Source: a virus
IMG/VR virus record: IMGVR_UViG_3300023109_002863
Span: 1-33,877 of that record
DNA length: 33,877 nucleotides
Reading direction: 5' to 3' (one strand)
Position 1 is the first letter of the stretch; each line of letters opens with the position of its first letter. Shown here piece after piece: positions 3-7,389 of this stretch. The notes under the pieces were generated by a model. The model saw only the letters and a list, made by a program, of their open reading frames with translations. It had not been told where the DNA came from and ran no database searches. The translations under genes and the position numbers were made by a program.

Positions 3-1136
3 GACGTTAAAAAAGCTCTCGATGATATCGATAGCGTTAATCCGTTTGCAACCTATCTATCTGATAGTACATTAAGTCGTGTTGGCGGCTGGATCGATAC
101 CGGTTCTTATGTTCTCAATGCAATTGTTTCAGGCTCGATTCATGGTGGTATACCAAAAGGTCGAGTTACTATGTTAGCCGGTGAATCAATGACTGGTAAA
201 TCGCTGTTCGTTATGAAAATACTAGCAGCTGCTCAGAAAGAAGGACTTATTCCTGTTATATTCGATACTGAAAATGCTATCGATCCTGAAGGCGCTGAAA
301 GACTCGGTCTTGATGTTAGTAATGTTAAGTATGTACCTTGTATTAGTATCGAACAAACACGTAATGCATTGTATAAGTTCCTTACTTCAGTCAAAGAGAA
401 AGGACTTGAAGGTAAGTTCATTGTAGCTATCGATTCACTCGGTAATTTACAATCAGAATTATCTCTAGCCCGTATGGGCAAGGATAGTACTTCAACAGAC
501 ATGGGTACAAACGCTCGTGCTATGAAGTCGTTAATGCAGACTTGTACTAATTTAGGTGCAGTTACTCAGACTACTATTCTTTGTACTAATCACGTGTATG
601 ATAACCCAGCTGCGTTGTTTCCATCCATCGAAAAGAACATGCCAGGTGGTAAGTCGTGCGTATATCTCCCGTCAGTTACAATTCAACTAGCGCGTAAGCC
701 AGTTAAGTCGGACGGTGGTAAGACTATGGATGGTGAAACTGCAGTAGCTCAGAAAAACTATGCAGGTATTATCATTAGAGCTCTTACTCGTAAGAATCGA
801 TTTATTAAACAGTACTTGGAAGGTGAAATGTATCTATCATTTGCATCTGGACTGGATAGATACTTCGGTATGATCGATCTTGCTGTCGGTGTTGGTGCTG
901 TTATTAGTACAGGTGCAACGTATCAGCTGCCAGACGGTAAGAAGTTAGGGTATTATAAGAATTGGCGTAAGGATAAGGAACTCTGGGAAAATACTATTCT
1001 ACCAGTGGTAGAAGAACGTATTGGTAAAGTGTGGTCTTACTCGAATGAAGAGGAAGAAGAGCTACCAGATGAAGTTGAAGATGAGAAACCCAAACCAAAG
1101 CCATTATCAGATCTTATTTCTGATGACGACGAATAG
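3..1136 (+). CDS. uvsX: UvsX/RecA-like recombinase (5' end outside the window)
   Basis: The reading frame is open from base 3, so the gene starts upstream of the window; the first internal Met (base 171) is not the start because conserved sequence (GGIPKGRVT) precedes it. The product is the phage strand-exchange recombinase, which loads on gp32-coated ssDNA for recombination-dependent replication. The Walker A motif is GESMTGKS, at about residues 60-67 of the visible part, and a Walker B-like VAIDSLG lies about 75 residues later. The C-terminus is strongly acidic (a run of Glu, ending SDDDE), as is common in UvsX/RecA proteins. The visible part is 377 residues, close to the roughly 390 of T4 UvsX, so only a short N-terminus is missing. 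The next gene begins 5 bases after the stop. Motifs are seen directly; the role is known for the family. Confidence 0.93.
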   Translation, partial: DVKKALDDIDSVNPFATYLSDSTLSRVGGWIDTGSYVLNAIVSGSIHGGIPKGRVTMLAGESMTGKSLFVMKILAAAQKEGLIPVIFDTENAIDPEGAERLGLDVSNVKYVPCISIEQTRNALYKFLTSVKEKGLEGKFIVAIDSLGNLQSELSLARMGKDSTSTDMGTNARAMKSLMQTCTNLGAVTQTTILCTNHVYDNPAALFPSIEKNMPGGKSCVYLPSVTIQLARKPVKSDGGKTMDGETAVAQKNYAGIIIRALTRKNRFIKQYLEGEMYLSFASGLDRYFGMIDLAVGVGAVISTGATYQLPDGKKLGYYKNWRKDKELWENTILPVVEERIGKVWSYSNEEEEELPDEVEDEKPKPKPLSDLISDDDE

Positions 1137-1141
1137 TATAA

Positions 1142-1888
1142 ATGAGTAAGAGATTAGTATTATCAATAAGCGGTGGTATGGATAGTGTTGTGCTATTGCA
1201 TATGGCTGCTGATAGGGGGTTTAAGGCAATTAACCTTATATCCTATAACTATGGTCAACGTCATGTACGTGAACTTGACTGTATACAGCATCAGATTGAT
1301 GCAATGAAGAGTAAGTTTCCTGATATTGAAGTAGATCACTATACAGCTGATGTACGATTTATTCAACATCTAGCACCCACATCATCACTCACTAATACCG
1401 ATATCGATAACCCGGATATTAGTAAAATGGCTGGTGATGCTCAGCCGGTTAGTTATGTACCGTTTCGTAATCAATTGTTCAATACAATAGGATGTGCATA
1501 TGCAGAGTCTAAAGGCGCAGATACCGTATGGTATGGAGCAGCAGAGGTCGATTCATTAGCAGGTTATTGGGATGGTAGTGTTGAGTTTGTCGACTCTATG
1601 AACGCTCTAATTGCTCTTAATAGAGAAAATCGTATTCAAATTGAAGCACCGTTATTAACTATGAGTAAAGAGGCTATCGTTAAGGAAGGTGTAAGGTTAG
1701 GAGTGGACTTCGGTAAGACATGGACTTGTTACTCTAATCGTAAGGATGGTCTAGCTGATGCTACTACTCCTTCATCTAGTATGAGAGTAAAGGGCTTTGT
1801 TGATGCTGGGTATCAAGATCCAATCCAGTATGTTCAGCAGGATAAACTGAATGAGTTATATATGGCTAAAGGCTGTAAGAAAATTTAA
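1142..1888 (+). CDS. queC: QueC-like PP-loop enzyme (preQ0 synthase family) with degenerate zinc site
   Basis: QueC is an ATP-dependent enzyme that turns 7-carboxy-7-deazaguanine into preQ0, a precursor of queuosine, archaeosine and of 7-deazaguanine bases in some phage DNAs. The 248-residue length matches the family. The ATP-binding PP-loop SGGMDS is at residues 10-15. Other QueC signatures are present: YVPFRNQLF, a GYWDG version of GYPD, EAPLLTMSKEAIV, TWTCY (Cys196) and RVKGF. The oddity is the C-terminal zinc knuckle. The family has Cys followed by CGxCxxC, but here the aligned positions are Asp206, Thr209 and Ser212, leaving only Cys196. The frame is otherwise intact, so this is substitution rather than decay. 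It lies 5 bases after uvsX, is probably co-transcribed, and is followed by a strong terminator. No QueD, QueE, FolE or DpdA gene is in the window. Family membership is strong; the substrate is uncertain. Confidence 0.85.
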   Translation: MSKRLVLSISGGMDSVVLLHMAADRGFKAINLISYNYGQRHVRELDCIQHQIDAMKSKFPDIEVDHYTADVRFIQHLAPTSSLTNTDIDNPDISKMAGDAQPVSYVPFRNQLFNTIGCAYAESKGADTVWYGAAEVDSLAGYWDGSVEFVDSMNALIALNRENRIQIEAPLLTMSKEAIVKEGVRLGVDFGKTWTCYSNRKDGLADATTPSSSMRVKGFVDAGYQDPIQYVQQDKLNELYMAKGCKKI

Positions 1889-1902
1889 ACTATAACGGCA
1901 AT

Positions 1903-1934
1903 AAAAAGAGGCATCGTACGATGCCTCTTTTTTT
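1903..1934. terminator. Bidirectional rho-independent terminator
   Basis: A perfect 20-base palindrome at 1908-1927 (gaggcatcgt/acgatgcctc) is flanked by five A residues on the left and seven T residues on the right. It therefore reads as a hairpin plus U-tract on both strands. It sits between the convergent stop codons of the queC-like gene (1888) and the minus-strand gene ending at 1961, exactly where a shared terminator is expected. Confidence 0.9.
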
Positions 1935-1960
1935 ATGTATATTATCTATATATATATATA

Positions 1961-3379
1961 TTAAAGACCGTAGCGACGTAACTCTTCTAACTGCCAGTGT
2001 GTCTTTGGCTTATAACGCTCTTTAAAGCTTTGTGACTGGCTAGAAGATTTTTTATTTTGCGAACCCTTGTTTCGCGCATCTTTACTAGCTTGCTCAGTTA
2101 AGTACATACTAGTTGAGTTTGTTGTTACATTAAGATGGCGTTGATTTTCGAAGTTCTCAGTGACTGTCATCTCATTACCTTCTTCTCCCTCTACGTTATC
2201 TGATGTTTCACTATTAGCTTTAGCATTAAAGAAATCTTTCAGATCATTTGCAATTTCTGCTTCTACTTGATCACCTGCCTCACCATACTCATTATACATT
2301 GCATTACAACCGTTGGCCATATCAGCGTTTGAAAGCTTATTAACCGGGCGACCGGTAAGGTCTGCAGCGCGCTGTGTACAAGCATCAAGTACTTCTTGCT
2401 TAACACTATCTTCATTATTTTCCCTTGGGTACTCACCAGGTATAGTAGGACCAGCCTTATCTTTCTCATGCTGTCTTGCATCTTCATCAGCACGCAACGC
2501 TGCACCTGCAGAGCGATGATCGAGCTCTGGAGTCACCTCTCCTGGTAAATCTGGCTTTTCATTAAAGCTCTCAGCATCTTCAATAGTAGTGTTAAGCAGC
2601 ACTTCAATTAAGTCTTCTTTTGCACCTGGGAAGTGCTTAAGAATAAGACCTGTCATTAGATCTTGTACTTTCGCTTCAGTTCCAAAAGATCCGATAGGAG
2701 CCTGAACGTTAAATCCGGACCTTGTAGCTTCAGCAGTATACCCTGCGCCGTTTAAAATACTAACAAGCTTTTTTGTTATTGCATCTTTATTTTCTAACCC
2801 GTAAAGACTAACATCTACATCATCAAAATCTAAAACTGTATCTTCTACATCAGCAGCTGTAAGTCCTTTTGCAAGATTTATAATCTCACTAGTTACTTCA
2901 TCTTCTAGATCTTTTGCATCTTCGTCCTGAGGCTCATCTTCTTTTATCTCTACATAGGTTTTACCTTGCAGATTAGTAAGCCCGAAGTTAAGCATATCCT
3001 TAGCATTTAATTTTATATGCTTTATAATATCATCACTCTCTTGCTGGAATCCAAATAACTTATCATGAGCTTCAGGATTAATCTCTTTTAATGTGTTTGA
3101 GATATAGTTAGATGATGTAGCTTTTTTCGCTAAAGCTTGGAACTGCTCATCGTTAAGGTAATCCTTATCATATAGAGCTCTTAATACTATTAAGTTTTTA
3201 ACTCTAGAAATAGCGCCTACAGGCTTTCCAGTTCTTTCATTTCTATATGCTTTAAGCATGAGATTTAACCCATCTTCACCGCCGGCGGCACCTTTAACAG
3301 TACGCTTAAAGCTATCTGCCATCTCATCTAAAGTTTCCATTCTTTCTAAAAGAATATTAAATCGATCTAAAGAGCTCAT
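1961..3379 (-). CDS. Unknown late protein, candidate internal head protein
   Basis: This 472-residue protein was not recognised. It is hydrophilic, with a long acidic middle (about residues 140-200 and 270-330) and a Ser/Gln/Lys-rich basic tail ending in RRYGL. No membrane segment or enzymatic motif is visible. The N-terminus MSSLDRFNILLE ends in Leu-Leu-Glu, which resembles the short N-terminal capsid-targeting peptides of T4 internal head proteins that the prohead protease cuts after Leu/Ile-x-Glu. The gene is on the late (minus) strand, has a TTAAATA box 7 nt before the ATG, and ends at the bidirectional terminator. It interrupts a plus-strand replication block. A virion or head role is inference; it could equally be another late protein. 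Confidence 0.8.
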   Translation of the reverse strand: MSSLDRFNILLERMETLDEMADSFKRTVKGAAGGEDGLNLMLKAYRNERTGKPVGAISRVKNLIVLRALYDKDYLNDEQFQALAKKATSSNYISNTLKEINPEAHDKLFGFQQESDDIIKHIKLNAKDMLNFGLTNLQGKTYVEIKEDEPQDEDAKDLEDEVTSEIINLAKGLTAADVEDTVLDFDDVDVSLYGLENKDAITKKLVSILNGAGYTAEATRSGFNVQAPIGSFGTEAKVQDLMTGLILKHFPGAKEDLIEVLLNTTIEDAESFNEKPDLPGEVTPELDHRSAGAALRADEDARQHEKDKAGPTIPGEYPRENNEDSVKQEVLDACTQRAADLTGRPVNKLSNADMANGCNAMYNEYGEAGDQVEAEIANDLKDFFNAKANSETSDNVEGEEGNEMTVTENFENQRHLNVTTNSTSMYLTEQASKDARNKGSQNKKSSSQSQSFKERYKPKTHWQLEELRRYGL

Positions 3380-3386
3380 ATAGTAA

Positions 3387-3392
3387 TATTTA
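3387..3392 (-). promoter_or_regulatory. T4-type late promoter box (TAAATA)
   Basis: TAAATA reads on the minus strand 7 nt before the ATG at 3379. It resembles the T4 late consensus TATAAATA, which is recognised by RNA polymerase with gp55, gp33 and the clamp. The short spacing leaves almost no 5' leader. Confidence 0.6.
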
Positions 3393-3448
3393 ATTAATTG
3401 TAGGTGAATTATAATAAAACTTGCAAAATAAAAGGAACATTCATATAC

Positions 3449-3454
3449 TAAATA
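3449..3454 (+). promoter_or_regulatory. T4-type late promoter box (TAAATA)
   Basis: CTAAATA reads on the plus strand 6 nt before the ATG at 3461. It is divergent from the box at 3387-3392. There is no Shine-Dalgarno sequence between the box and the start. Confidence 0.6.
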
Positions 3455-3460
3455 AGTAAT

Positions 3461-3850
3461 ATGAAACTATCTTATAAGGATTTCAACAAAATGAACGATA
3501 AAGAGCTTCGAGCTCTTCCTGGGGTAGGTAAAAGAACCGCTAGAAACATCGTAGCAATGCGACCATATCGTAATAGTAACGATTTATTCAAGGTTGGTGG
3601 GTTAGGTACCAATACTCTTATGAAGTTTGGTATTGAAAAGACTAAAAAGAAGCGTAAAAAATGGATAACCATCGAAGGTATCGACTATCCTCACTATTGC
3701 TTTGCTTTTGATGAAAGAAATATTAAGATTATGGATTTTTTCTGGCGAATTCCACGTGAATATAGATTATACTACGGTAAAATGGAAGAAAGTATGGTTC
3801 TTACAAAGAAGTTACGAGCAAAATTAGATATACAATTGGAAAAACTATAA
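3461..3850 (+). CDS. Helix-hairpin-helix (ComEA-type) DNA-binding protein
   Basis: A 129-residue basic protein. The N-terminal half carries a helix-hairpin-helix pair: LPGVGKRTARNIV (hairpin GVG at residues 21-23), then a second, weaker hairpin VGGLG at 45-49. This is the arrangement of ComEA-like non-specific DNA-binding modules. A Lys/Arg-rich stretch (TKKKRKKW) follows, then about 65 residues that I do not recognise. No nuclease motif is visible. It has its own TAAATA box 6 nt upstream and precedes the amidotransferase gene by 19 bases. A role in DNA binding is well supported by the motif. The process it serves (replication, packaging or modification) is not visible in the sequence. Confidence 0.8.
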   Translation: MKLSYKDFNKMNDKELRALPGVGKRTARNIVAMRPYRNSNDLFKVGGLGTNTLMKFGIEKTKKKRKKWITIEGIDYPHYCFAFDERNIKIMDFFWRIPREYRLYYGKMEESMVLTKKLRAKLDIQLEKL

Positions 3851-3869
3851 TATTTGATTAAATTATTTT

Positions 3870-4538
3870 ATGTGTGCGATTTTTGGGTCATTTTCCTCTT
3901 CAATGAATGAGATATTATACGACGCTAATAAAAAGAGAGGTAATTTTGCGAGTAGTTTAGTGCAAGTTACTTCTGACGATCAATACATATATAAGAGTGC
4001 CGGAGGTATTGATTTTGATAAAGTAAAATATTCTGATCATACAGAATATTTTATGGGACATGTACAAGCTCCTACATCAGTACAAAGAGAGTTCCGTTAT
4101 GAAACGTCGCACCCGTTTGAAGCTATGTCGTGGCTACTCTTTCATAACGGTGTTTTAGTAAATGAAGAGCAGATCCGCGATAATTACTTACGCTATGTTT
4201 TAAACCCTGTTGATAGCTCGTTAATAGTAAATTTAATTCAATACTTTATGGAGAGTGATGTATCAAAAAAGCCTAACCCTATAAAATATATTAAGCAAGC
4301 TTTAGAAGTTATAGATGGTACCTTTGCTCTTTCTATAGTTGATTGTGATACATGTGAAATTTACTTGGCTAGGGTAGGTTCAATTCTTTATTATAACAAT
4401 ACAGGATCCTTTTCTACTTTATCTGGTGAGGGATTTAAAGAAGTACCTGAAGGTACAATAATGAGACTTAATAAATCTACTAAACGATTTAATAAAGTAG
4501 GCTCGTTTAAATATAGCTCCCCCTTTATGTTTATATGA
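3870..4538 (+). CDS. Free-standing class II glutamine amidotransferase
   Basis: An N-terminal-nucleophile amidohydrolase that should release ammonia from glutamine for a partner synthetase. Mature Cys2 follows the initiator Met in MCAIFG. The family motifs appear in order: RG at 23-24, GHVQAPTS at 63-70 (compare GHTRWATHG), HNG at 92-94 with the oxyanion Asn, VDSSLI at 114-119 and DGTFALS around 149-155. The 222 residues cover the amidotransferase domain only; the synthetase half seen in PurF, GlmS, AsnB or Gat-QueC is absent. The 3' end overlaps the next gene, a glycosyltransferase, by 4 bases (ATGA), so the two are translationally coupled. A QueC-like PP-loop protein lies 2 kb upstream. Either could be the partner; the enzyme class is secure, the acceptor is not. 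A TAAATT box is 5 nt before the start. Confidence 0.87.
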   Translation: MCAIFGSFSSSMNEILYDANKKRGNFASSLVQVTSDDQYIYKSAGGIDFDKVKYSDHTEYFMGHVQAPTSVQREFRYETSHPFEAMSWLLFHNGVLVNEEQIRDNYLRYVLNPVDSSLIVNLIQYFMESDVSKKPNPIKYIKQALEVIDGTFALSIVDCDTCEIYLARVGSILYYNNTGSFSTLSGEGFKEVPEGTIMRLNKSTKRFNKVGSFKYSSPFMFI

Positions 4539-5185
4539 ATAATAGTTTTATAATATCAGCTACTAAAGGCTCGAGAAAAGATACCTTATTATTTAAGAGT
4601 AATACGGAAGAAGATATTTTCTTTAAAGAATATAATAAAGATTCACTTCAAAAAGTATACAACAAGGCTATCGATTTTGCTATAAAGGAAAATTTAGAAT
4701 ATATTGTATTAGTTCATGATGATGTCGTTTTAGAGAATTTTAGTACGCAAAAATTAAAAGAGAATTTTGAAGAATTTGATTTATTTGGAGTGGCTGGTAC
4801 ATCTGAAGTAAAGCTTCAATCACCAGCGTTATGGCATTTAATGGGAGGTGGGATTAACAGTGATAATTTACACGGTGCAGTAGCACATCTACATGGTAAT
4901 AAAAAATCAATGACATCATTTGGACCATATCCGAGTAGAGTAATAATGTTAGATGGTGTATTTATGGCCATATCTCGTAAAGTGTTTAAGAAAATAAGAT
5001 TTGATGAAGATTGCCCATCTAAGTTTCACTTTTACGATTTAGATTATAGTTTAACTGCTCATAAAGCAGGGTTTAAAGTAGGAGTTTCAGATGTGTATAT
5101 AACTCATGCATCTCCTGGTTTAAGAGAGTTTACAGAAGAATTTAATAAAGGATCAGATTGGTTCTTGAAAAAGCATAAAAGTTAA
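4535..5185 (+). CDS. StrF-like family 2 glycosyltransferase
   Basis: A 216-residue protein resembling the small GT-A glycosyltransferases related to streptomycin-biosynthesis StrF. Visible features are VLVHDDVVLENF with the acidic metal/nucleotide motif HDD at 61-63, LDGVFMAISRKVF (139-151), the FHFYDLDYSL block at 164-173 and a late His (residue 191, THASPG). No membrane segment is seen. It overlaps the amidotransferase gene by 4 bases and ends 13 bases before gp41, so it sits in a replication operon rather than the virion block. It may modify DNA, a small molecule or a host or virion glycan; the sequence does not say which. The fold family is fairly confident, the substrate unknown. Confidence 0.75.
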   Translation: MNNSFIISATKGSRKDTLLFKSNTEEDIFFKEYNKDSLQKVYNKAIDFAIKENLEYIVLVHDDVVLENFSTQKLKENFEEFDLFGVAGTSEVKLQSPALWHLMGGGINSDNLHGAVAHLHGNKKSMTSFGPYPSRVIMLDGVFMAISRKVFKKIRFDEDCPSKFHFYDLDYSLTAHKAGFKVGVSDVYITHASPGLREFTEEFNKGSDWFLKKHKS

Positions 5186-5198
5186 TTATACTTAGATC

Positions 5199-6503
5199 GT
5201 GAGTAAGTTAGATTTAGATTATTTTGAGAATATCTTAATCTATAAGTCCCTAACAGATAGTGGTTATTTGGCTACTATTGCAGACGTTGTTAAGCCTGAA
5301 TATTTCAAAAATAAGGCTATCGCTGACGTTTTTTCAATTATTAAGGACTTTAGTGATAAGAGAAACAAGCTTCCTACTACAACTGAGCTTAAGTCTTATC
5401 TGGTGAGCGACGAGCAGAAAGACTCGTTCAAAATACTTGTAAAGTCTTTTTCAGAGATCGATAAGGGTCTTGATAACGATGAGCTTTATGATAATACAGA
5501 GCAGTTCTTGAAAGAGAAGGCTGTATATCATACTATGCTTTCAGTTGCAGAGGACGTAGCAAGCGGTAAGGTTGATACGTCAGTAGTTTTAGATAAGTTT
5601 GAAAAGTCGTGTAATATAAGTCTAGTTACTGATCTTGGTTTAGATATTCATAACGATATCGATATACTTATAGATGATATAAATTCTGTACAAGCTCATA
5701 TTCCTAGTCAGTGGGAATGGCTAGATAATAACCTTGATGGAGGATTTTTAGAATCTGGTAAATCTCTTTATGTATTTGCCGGTGAGACAAATATAGGTAA
5801 GTCTATCTTTCTTGGTAATATTGCTAAGAATATAGCGTCACAAGATAAGAATGTTCTATTAATTACTTTAGAGATGTCGGAGTTATTATACGCAAGGCGG
5901 TTATGTACTAATATCTCTAAAATACCTATGAAAGAGATGGGTATGAATTCTGCTAGTCTTAAGCATGCTGTTAATCAAGAGCCCGGTAGAATCTTTATTA
6001 AAGAGTTTCCACCTTCAACAGTTACACCTAATCAGATTAAAGCGTTTATAAAAAAGTTTCATGATCAAGGTATCAAGTTAGATGCTATTGTCATAGACTA
6101 TCTTAACCTTATACATTCGACTATTGGTAATAATTCTTATGAGCGTATTAAAAACGTTACTGAGCAAGTGCGCGCTATGTCTTACTTATTTGAATGTCCG
6201 ATTATCTCTGCAACTCAGTTAAATAGATCTGGTTTCGATCAAGATAATCCCGACTTAGCTACTATCTCGGAATCTATAGGACTTGCTGCTACAGCAGACG
6301 TTATTATGTCGATTTATCAGAATGAAGAAGATAGGGAGTTAGGTATTATTAGACTTGGTATGATGAAAAATCGTTACGGTCCTCGTGGCAATACTCAAGC
6401 TATGCGAATAGATTACTCTACCCTTAGTATTGAAGAAGCAGATGATATAGAGTTTGATGAAGAAGATGACACGCTTCAGTCGTTAGTTGCATTCTCGCAA
6501 TAA
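5199..6503 (+). CDS. 41: Replicative DNA helicase, gp41 (DnaB family)
   Basis: This is the hexameric 5'-3' helicase of the T4-type replisome, which works with primase gp61 and the loader gp59. The 434 residues compare with 475 in T4. An N-terminal helical domain (about 1-150) is followed by a RecA-like motor: Walker A AGETNIGKS at 194-202, Walker B LDAIVIDYLN at 294-303, and the SATQLNRSG segment at 337-345, typical of DnaB helicases. The C-terminus is acidic (EFDEEDD). Translation appears to start at GTG 5199; no Shine-Dalgarno and no TAAATA box precede it, so it is probably read from the upstream operon. In many T4-like phages uvsX and 41 lie close together; here a queC/GAT/GT insertion separates them. 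Confidence 0.92.
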   Translation: MSKLDLDYFENILIYKSLTDSGYLATIADVVKPEYFKNKAIADVFSIIKDFSDKRNKLPTTTELKSYLVSDEQKDSFKILVKSFSEIDKGLDNDELYDNTEQFLKEKAVYHTMLSVAEDVASGKVDTSVVLDKFEKSCNISLVTDLGLDIHNDIDILIDDINSVQAHIPSQWEWLDNNLDGGFLESGKSLYVFAGETNIGKSIFLGNIAKNIASQDKNVLLITLEMSELLYARRLCTNISKIPMKEMGMNSASLKHAVNQEPGRIFIKEFPPSTVTPNQIKAFIKKFHDQGIKLDAIVIDYLNLIHSTIGNNSYERIKNVTEQVRAMSYLFECPIISATQLNRSGFDQDNPDLATISESIGLAATADVIMSIYQNEEDRELGIIRLGMMKNRYGPRGNTQAMRIDYSTLSIEEADDIEFDEEDDTLQSLVAFSQ

Positions 6504-6519: not shown

Positions 6520-7389
6520 GTGAACATCCTCATATACACAGATAATGATTTGGATGGAGCGGGGTCTGCTTTAGTATTAAAATGGTATTTTGAGACTATA
6601 GCAAATGTAGTAATCGAAGAAACAGGAGAATCTACTTTAATATCAAAGCTCAAATCTAAGAACGGTGCATTAGATACTTTCGATAAAGTGTTTATTTGTG
6701 ATCTTGCTCTTACAGAAGATATTATACCTGAAGTTGATAAAAAGAATTTCGTAATATTTGATCATCACGTCGATCATAGTAAATTAAGAAATAATTATAA
6801 GCATGCAAAAACTATAATTAAGCCATATTCATCATGTTCAAAATTAATTTATGATACGTTCCTATCTAAATTATCTCTTACACAGCAACAAATAGATCTT
6901 ATAAATTTTATTGATGAGTATGATTCTTATAAAATTAAAAATGCTGAAGCACTTAAACTTAATGCTATATTTTACCTTTACAATAATCCTAAAGTTAATA
7001 AATTTATAGAATCGTTTAATCATGGTATAAGAGATTTTAATATATTAGAAAAAAATTCTATAAATCTATTCTTTAAGAAATTTAAAGAGCAATTAAACAA
7101 CGCTGAAATTTATAAAGGAAAAATAAAAGATTATAGCGTTGTTGCGACGTTTGCTAATTATGCTGTTAATGAAGTAGCACACTCAATAATAGCAAAACAT
7201 AACGTTGATATAGGTATAGTTGTAAATAAGGAAACTAAAACAGTATCCTTTAGACGGAGCAAAACTTCAGAGGTAGATGTTAGTATACTTGCGCGTAAAT
7301 TTTGTAATGGTGGTGGTTCGGTAGGGGCTGCAGGTGGAGCATTAACAGAACAATTTGGAAACTTAACAAAACTTTTAACCCGTGTCTGA
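6520..7389 (+). CDS. DHH/DHHA1 phosphoesterase (RecJ/NrnA-like nuclease)
   Basis: A 289-residue member of the DHH superfamily, whose members are Mn2+-dependent phosphodiesterases acting on ssDNA, short oligonucleotides or cyclic dinucleotides. Motif I is YTDNDLDGAGSA (Asp8, Asp10, Asp12), motif II ICDLAL (Asp61), motif III DHH at 81-83, and the C-terminal DHHA1 signature is GGGSVGAAGG at 264-273, so all catalytic elements are present. The GTG start gives MNILIYTDND, placing motif I at the correct distance from the N-terminus. In T4 the slot upstream of genes 33, 59 and 32 is held by rnh; here this nuclease fills it, while an rnh-like gene is found at 11199. The substrate (primer or oligonucleotide scavenging, recombination, or signalling nucleotides) is open. 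Confidence 0.88.
   Translation: MNILIYTDNDLDGAGSALVLKWYFETIANVVIEETGESTLISKLKSKNGALDTFDKVFICDLALTEDIIPEVDKKNFVIFDHHVDHSKLRNNYKHAKTIIKPYSSCSKLIYDTFLSKLSLTQQQIDLINFIDEYDSYKIKNAEALKLNAIFYLYNNPKVNKFIESFNHGIRDFNILEKNSINLFFKKFKEQLNNAEIYKGKIKDYSVVATFANYAVNEVAHSIIAKHNVDIGIVVNKETKTVSFRRSKTSEVDVSILARKFCNGGGSVGAAGGALTEQFGNLTKLLTRV

Follow-up and report, generated by a model that had tools for sequence, protein, structure and literature searches.

A split QueC and glutamine amidotransferase pair without the QueC zinc site, very likely part of a 7-deazaguanine DNA-modification pathway in uncultured T4-like phages

The 33,877-base linear fragment of an uncultured T4-like phage analysed here in its entirety (IMG/VR record IMGVR_UViG_3300023109_002863; hereafter, the window) very likely carries two genes that belong to a pathway of 7-deazaguanine DNA modification. 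One encodes a QueC-family synthetase devoid of the zinc site and the other a stand-alone class II glutamine amidotransferase (Gat). In the explanation that accounts best for the data, and that we consider probable, the two proteins form a two-subunit, glutamine-dependent enzyme that feeds QueF and a DpdA-type transglycosylase, and the resulting base protects the phage DNA. The original prediction for this DNA, a 7-deazaguanine modification system with QueC and Gat acting in trans, is supported by the pathway genes found in relatives of the window and by the occurrence of a similar split pair near DpdA2 in phages nt-1, KVP40, and pf16. The two genes are as follows:

1142..1888, + strand: QueC-family PP-loop synthetase without zinc site (PF06508, motifs, AlphaFold model)
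3870..4538, + strand: stand-alone class II glutamine amidotransferase, Gat (GATase_6, phrog_12378)

A gap of 1,981 bp separates the QueC stop from the Gat start, in agreement with the predicted pair of genes about 2 kb apart. The window QueC (248 amino acids, aa) matches PF06508 with an E value of 2.6e-47 (161.5 bits vs. the cut-off of 22) and scores below the cut-off of the QueC equivalog model TIGR00364 (133.6 vs. 150.3 bits). Its motifs are SGGMDS (10-15), YGQRHVRE (37-44), VPFRN (106-110), YWDG (142-145), K176, and C196-Y197. The viral contig scan revealed 65 relatives of QueC, with identities as low as 40%, and the alignment query for such relatives gave at least 590 matches. Conserved in relatives are SGGxDS, YxQxHxxE, VPxRN, Y142, K176, and C196-Y197. 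The residues that serve as a QueC motif test (S10-S15, Y37/Q39/H41/E44, V106-N110, Y142, and Y197) are all kept in the window protein, as are counterparts of Y35, R99, Y131, and Y189 of Escherichia coli QueC, shown by site-directed mutagenesis to be essential (PMC13329287). The AlphaFold model of the window QueC has a predicted local distance difference test score (pLDDT) of 86, and its top Foldseek matches in the PDB are the QueC proteins of Bacillus subtilis and Erwinia carotovora (E 2e-12). Cap9 is also among the structural matches, ranked only under QueC; protein deazaguanylation of the Cap9/QatC type was nevertheless rejected, as the window QueC is a 248-aa protein with canonical motifs and its annotated neighbours include neither a CD-NTase nor the qatA/B/D partners.

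The departure of the window QueC from the canonical protein concerns its cysteines. In the C(x)8CxxCxxC zinc motif C196 alone is left, the remaining three cysteines being substituted (DATTPSSS), and the YPDC motif is replaced by YWDG, with the loss of its cysteine; the latter replacement is found in most QueC relatives, including those that retain the zinc site. The QueC half was thus correctly predicted to be altered, but the new acceptor postulated along with this is not needed, as the changes are limited to the zinc and YPDC cysteines and all residues essential in E. coli QueC are kept. The ratios of nonsynonymous to synonymous substitution rates (dN/dS) in pairwise comparisons of queC with close relatives, 0.035-0.063, rule out a degenerate QueC. 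In the set used for the QueC tree, the three zinc cysteines are absent from 31 of 31 sequences of the window clade and retained in 18 sequences, which come from diverged relatives (e.g., L053-L063), the KVP40 group, 9g, CAjan, and CP220. Since the 31 zinc-less sequences form a single branch (support 98/96) nested among split QueC and Gat pairs that keep zinc, the zinc site was lost once, after the split arrangement had arisen.

The window Gat (222 aa) matches GATase_6 with 31.1 bits (cut-off 27) and contains no synthetase domain, nor is anything fused to it, as had been predicted. Its best PHROG match, phrog_12378, also comprises the Gat proteins of nt-1 and KVP40. It carries C2, R23-G24, GHVQAPT (63-69), H92-N93-G94, and D115, of which C2, R23, H64, Q66, N93-G94, and D115 are invariant in an alignment of 20 diverse sequences. 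The N-terminal catalytic cysteine, the oxyanion Asn-Gly, and the substrate Asp of class II amidotransferases are thereby present, and these residues fit an active class II glutaminase, which makes the activity likely, though not certain. Pairwise dN/dS values for gat and its close relatives are 0.059-0.106. In every locus examined QueC and Gat are encoded by two open reading frames, and the fused Gat-QueC of archaeosine-type systems is not found.

The remaining genes of the locus are listed below:

171..1136, + strand: UvsX-like recombinase (phrog_97, E 4.8e-44, and synteny); left boundary of the locus, outside the pathway
1961..3379, - strand: gene of unknown function between queC and gat, with no Pfam or PHROG match
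3461..3850, + strand: helix-hairpin-helix protein, upstream of gat (PF12836, E 6.8e-9)
4535..5185, + strand: glycosyltransferase of family 2 type, GT2 (PF13712, E 7.7e-14)
5199..6503, + strand: gp41-like replicative helicase (phrog_19, E 1.3e-75, and synteny); right boundary of the locus, outside the pathway

Conservation of this arrangement was assessed in 112 IMG/VR loci containing uvsX as well as gp41. Between these genes, QueC, Gat, and GT2 occur together in 109 loci, QueC and Gat in two, and QueC with a glycosyltransferase in one; QueC and Gat are consequently both inside the interval in 111 of the 112 loci. A pair kept in one locus in more than 100 contigs and under strong purifying selection is not a product of chance. 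With the module present in each of the 112 loci, the synteny test does not separate function from shared descent. The uvsX-like gene ends 5 nt upstream of queC. In the window clade, queC and gat are separated by the inserted opposite-strand gene and the helix-hairpin-helix gene. The opposite-strand gene is missing from the diverged loci L054 and L058-L062; in L058-L062 queC and gat abut or overlap. The helix-hairpin-helix gene is a lineage-specific neighbour, with no detectable copy in several relatives. A gene of a DHH-family phosphoesterase (6520-7389), which adjoins the gp41-like helicase gene, is kept in most loci of the clade.

The GT2 gene overlaps the gat stop by 4 nt and accompanies QueC in 110 of the 112 loci. 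Conserved residues of its product are H61 and D63 (HDD motif), D140, D168, and H191, and a tblastn search with GT2 against isolate phages gave no matches. GT2 is a conserved neighbour, the role of which in the pathway is unproven.

Profiles of QueD, QueE, FolE, FolE2, QueF, and three DpdA families gave no matches in the window, as stated in the original prediction for DpdA, QueD, QueE, and FolE. The search for dpdA, folE, queD, and queE that it recommended for the rest of the genome was conducted in relatives and revealed FolE or FolE2, QueD, QueE, QueF, and a DpdA-like protein with the fold of tRNA-guanine transglycosylases (TGT). Each of four near-complete relatives, G037 (197 kb), G038 (209 kb), G039 (230 kb), and G040 (185 kb), encodes FolE or FolE2, QueD, QueE, QueC, and Gat, so that the set of FolE, QueD, QueE, and QueC is complete in them; it is partial in the closer relative G005 (QueC 86% identical to that of the window), where FolE2, QueD, and QueE are encoded by the same 45-kb contig. 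Among the core genes of the relatives is that of QueF, which has an intact reductase-type NADPH motif; in G037-G040 the protein contains ESKSxKLY together with the active-site residues SNC...D. The FolE2-like GTP cyclohydrolase replaces FolE in part of the clade, namely in G005 (L085 16931-17986) and five more relatives. P-loop kinases of the Pfam AAA_28 type (L175 8620-9465, L088 15928-16656, L179 2736-3287) are encoded beside QueE in several relatives and also next to the DpdA-like gene described below. A tmRNA gene is present in the T4-like relative G037 (L168 15777-16193); the tRNA scan covered two near-complete relatives.

Searches for DpdA with PF01702, phrog_887, and phrog_10773 gave no matches in the window, its relatives, or the near-complete genomes. 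A profile-profile scan of 372 families with hhalign gave a weak match (30% probability) to a core family of proteins with a length of about 267 aa. The protein of this family carries LLDNSIFEL, VPD, VQG, HHLLGC, and DTSNP in the order found in TGT enzymes. Its AlphaFold model (pLDDT 91.6) has a TGT fold: the top 50 Foldseek matches are all tRNA-guanine transglycosylases or DpdA (7ui4), and VIA-align, over 231-235 residues, gave Z scores of 18.0 for arcTGT and 17.6 for DpdA. The closest homologue in an isolate (48.5% identity) comes from Flavobacterium phage immuto; it carries the annotation DpdA and has QueD, QueE, FolE, a kinase, and QueF as neighbours. Fold and homology to the immuto DpdA thus indicate that G037-G040 encode a putative DpdA-type transglycosylase, and a DpdA-free pathway, considered earlier, was abandoned once the weak hhalign match was backed by the motif order, the annotated isolate homologue, and the fold. 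In 78 of 80 contigs the gene is grouped with queF and the gene of a P-loop kinase, and kinase genes of this type lie between the DpdA-like gene and queF in 80 of 80 loci examined.

A protein 45.6% identical to the DpdA-like protein is gp056 of Campylobacter phage CP220 (NC_027997.1 54675-55451; L379 4001-4777), annotated as hypothetical and adjoined by gp057, which belongs to the kinase family encoded beside the DpdA-like gene in the T4-like relatives. In PMC6884629, Campylobacter phages of this type are counted among those devoid of DpdA, with 2'-deoxy-7-amido-7-deazaguanosine (dADG) in their DNA, and the insertion of dADG in Firehammervirus phages has been described as possibly DpdA-independent. 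CP220, a Firehammervirus, encodes FolE and QueC along with this transglycosylase and kinase, but its QueC keeps the zinc cysteines, no Gat is annotated beside it, and the product reported for it is dADG.

The closest parallel to the window arrangement is found in the isolates KVP40 and nt-1 (Vibrio phages), F86, Pseudomonas phage pf16, and Vibrio phage 2.275.O, in which a Gat-family gene (phrog_12378), mostly annotated as hypothetical and located next to FolE, comes immediately after the QueC gene (phrog_1550). These are separate, neighbouring genes of the same families as in the window, and the isolate Gat proteins share C2 and CHVQAPT/GHVQAPT with the window family. In KVP40, nt-1, and pf16 the pair lies near FolE, QueD, and DpdA2, and in KVP40, pf16, and 2.275.O QueF is encoded beside it. 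KVP40.0123 (L073 4043-4951) and pf16_gp79 (L221 6002-6946), both annotated as GTP cyclohydrolase, are matches to the QueF of the relatives. The window clade differs from these phages in three respects: it has lost the zinc site, while QueC of KVP40, nt-1, pf16, and 2.275.O keeps all four zinc cysteines; the transglycosylase of its relatives belongs to a family other than DpdA2 (phrog_10773), used by KVP40, nt-1, and pf16; and an opposite-strand gene separates queC from gat, which are adjacent in the isolates. Canonical QueC (B. subtilis 3BL5, E. carotovora 2PG3) shares with the window protein the fold and all residues essential in E. coli, but it has both the zinc motif C(x)8CxxCxxC and YPDC and lacks a partner Gat.

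In the reaction sequence that we propose, FolE or FolE2, QueD, and QueE, whose genes lie in other parts of these genomes, would make 7-carboxy-7-deazaguanine. The catalytic Cys2 of Gat would hydrolyse glutamine and the ammonia would be handed to the QueC subunit, which, using ATP and in the absence of zinc, would convert 7-carboxy-7-deazaguanine to 7-amido-7-deazaguanine (ADG) and further to 7-cyano-7-deazaguanine (preQ0). QueF would then reduce preQ0 to 7-aminomethyl-7-deazaguanine (preQ1), and the compact DpdA-type enzyme, whose gene shares an operon with those of QueF and the P-loop kinase, would replace guanine in phage DNA with the deazaguanine base. The modified base would shield phage DNA from restriction, and deazaguanine bases are probably a shield against bacterial defences. 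Because QueF is a core gene product, the predicted base is 2'-deoxy-preQ1 (dPreQ1), favoured over 2'-deoxyarchaeosine (dG+) and dADG, both of which are possible. A precedent is halovirus HVTV-1, which has preQ0 genes and a QueF-family gene and in which dPreQ1 was reported to account for about 30% of G (PMC6884629), although its host is archaeal and no phage DpdA is known for it. ADG as an end product resulting from the zinc loss was also considered and is weakened by the core QueF, which requires preQ0.

Several observations weigh against this explanation. Three of the zinc cysteines that characterise canonical QueC are missing from each of the 31 window-clade sequences in the tree set, and the QueC reaction may therefore differ. 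The arginine of the GHxR motif is a signature of GlmS and PurF. This substrate-binding arginine of class II enzymes is absent from Gat, where GHxQ is found throughout the family, and for this reason the glutaminase activity is less than certain. Gat may also serve another step, as the synthesis of preQ0 takes one ammonia and canonical QueC uses free ammonia. Finally, the window itself contains no other genes of the pathway; in relatives, the distance from queC is about 20-35 kb for the genes of FolE, QueD, and QueE and about 50-80 kb for the operon of the DpdA-like gene and queF, and the genome from which the window derives presumably carries them beyond the sequenced fragment.

Among other explanations, the archaeosine-type product of the original prediction fares best, though we consider it unlikely. 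Gat and QueC would here act like the fused Gat-QueC known from Crenarchaeota and Enterobacteria phage 9g and convert preQ0, free or in DNA, to archaeosine, with dG+ as the base. The same two domains, fused, yield dG+ in 9g (PMC6884629), and nt-1, which has a split pair, was reported there to contain dPreQ0, dG+, and dADG at low level. As in the window, a class II Gat accompanies a QueC unit in these systems, where the deazaguanine pathway acts on DNA in 9g and on tRNA in archaea. However, 9g has a single fused chain, zinc cysteines, Arg in the position where split Gats have Gln, and a different DpdA, and the window QueC is nearer to QueC of nt-1 and 2.275.O than to the QueC domain of 9g. Moreover, dG+ constitutes only about 0.02% of G in nt-1 and is ascribed to ArcS in the nt-1 passages of PMC6884629, where this Gat goes unmentioned. 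The core QueF, the intact NADPH motif of which indicates preQ1, would compete for preQ0.

We regard as quite improbable that GT2 is a third enzyme of the pathway, adding a sugar to preQ1 or another deazaguanine in phage DNA made via the zinc-free, two-subunit QueC; such a glycosylated deazaguanine base has not yet been described. There is still less reason to expect that phage preQ1 supplies the host TGT and increases queuosine in host tRNA during infection, with phage DNA left unmodified. This was proposed by Hutinet et al. for phages with preQ0 genes and without DpdA, and the whole preQ1 pathway is indeed present here; yet a TGT-fold transglycosylase is encoded as well, linked to QueF in nearly all of its loci, and its CP220 homologue comes from a group whose DNA was reported as highly modified with dADG, which points to DNA rather than tRNA as the probable target. 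Very improbable is a glycan-modifying system of QueC, Gat, and GT2, resembling WbpG-type N-sugar amidotransferases and unconnected with deazaguanine: although WbpG is a member of the QueC superfamily, the Gat and GT2 genes overlap and stay with QueC in nearly all loci, and relatives have sugar-nucleotide epimerase/dehydratase genes in common, the QueC motifs are those of a canonical preQ0 synthase, unlike WbpG, and the same genomes encode a complete preQ1 pathway and a TGT-fold enzyme.

The Gat gene beside QueC in nt-1 and KVP40 had gone unremarked and bears on the synthesis of dG+ in nt-1. The compact transglycosylase family offers, in CP220 gp056, a candidate gene for the insertion of dADG in Firehammervirus phages, a link that later papers may have made already. 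With a natural QueC without the zinc site on offer, the role of zinc becomes testable. The findings point to 7-deazaguanine DNA modification across a large group of uncultured T4-like phages, the QueC of which would be recast as a two-subunit, glutamine-fed enzyme.

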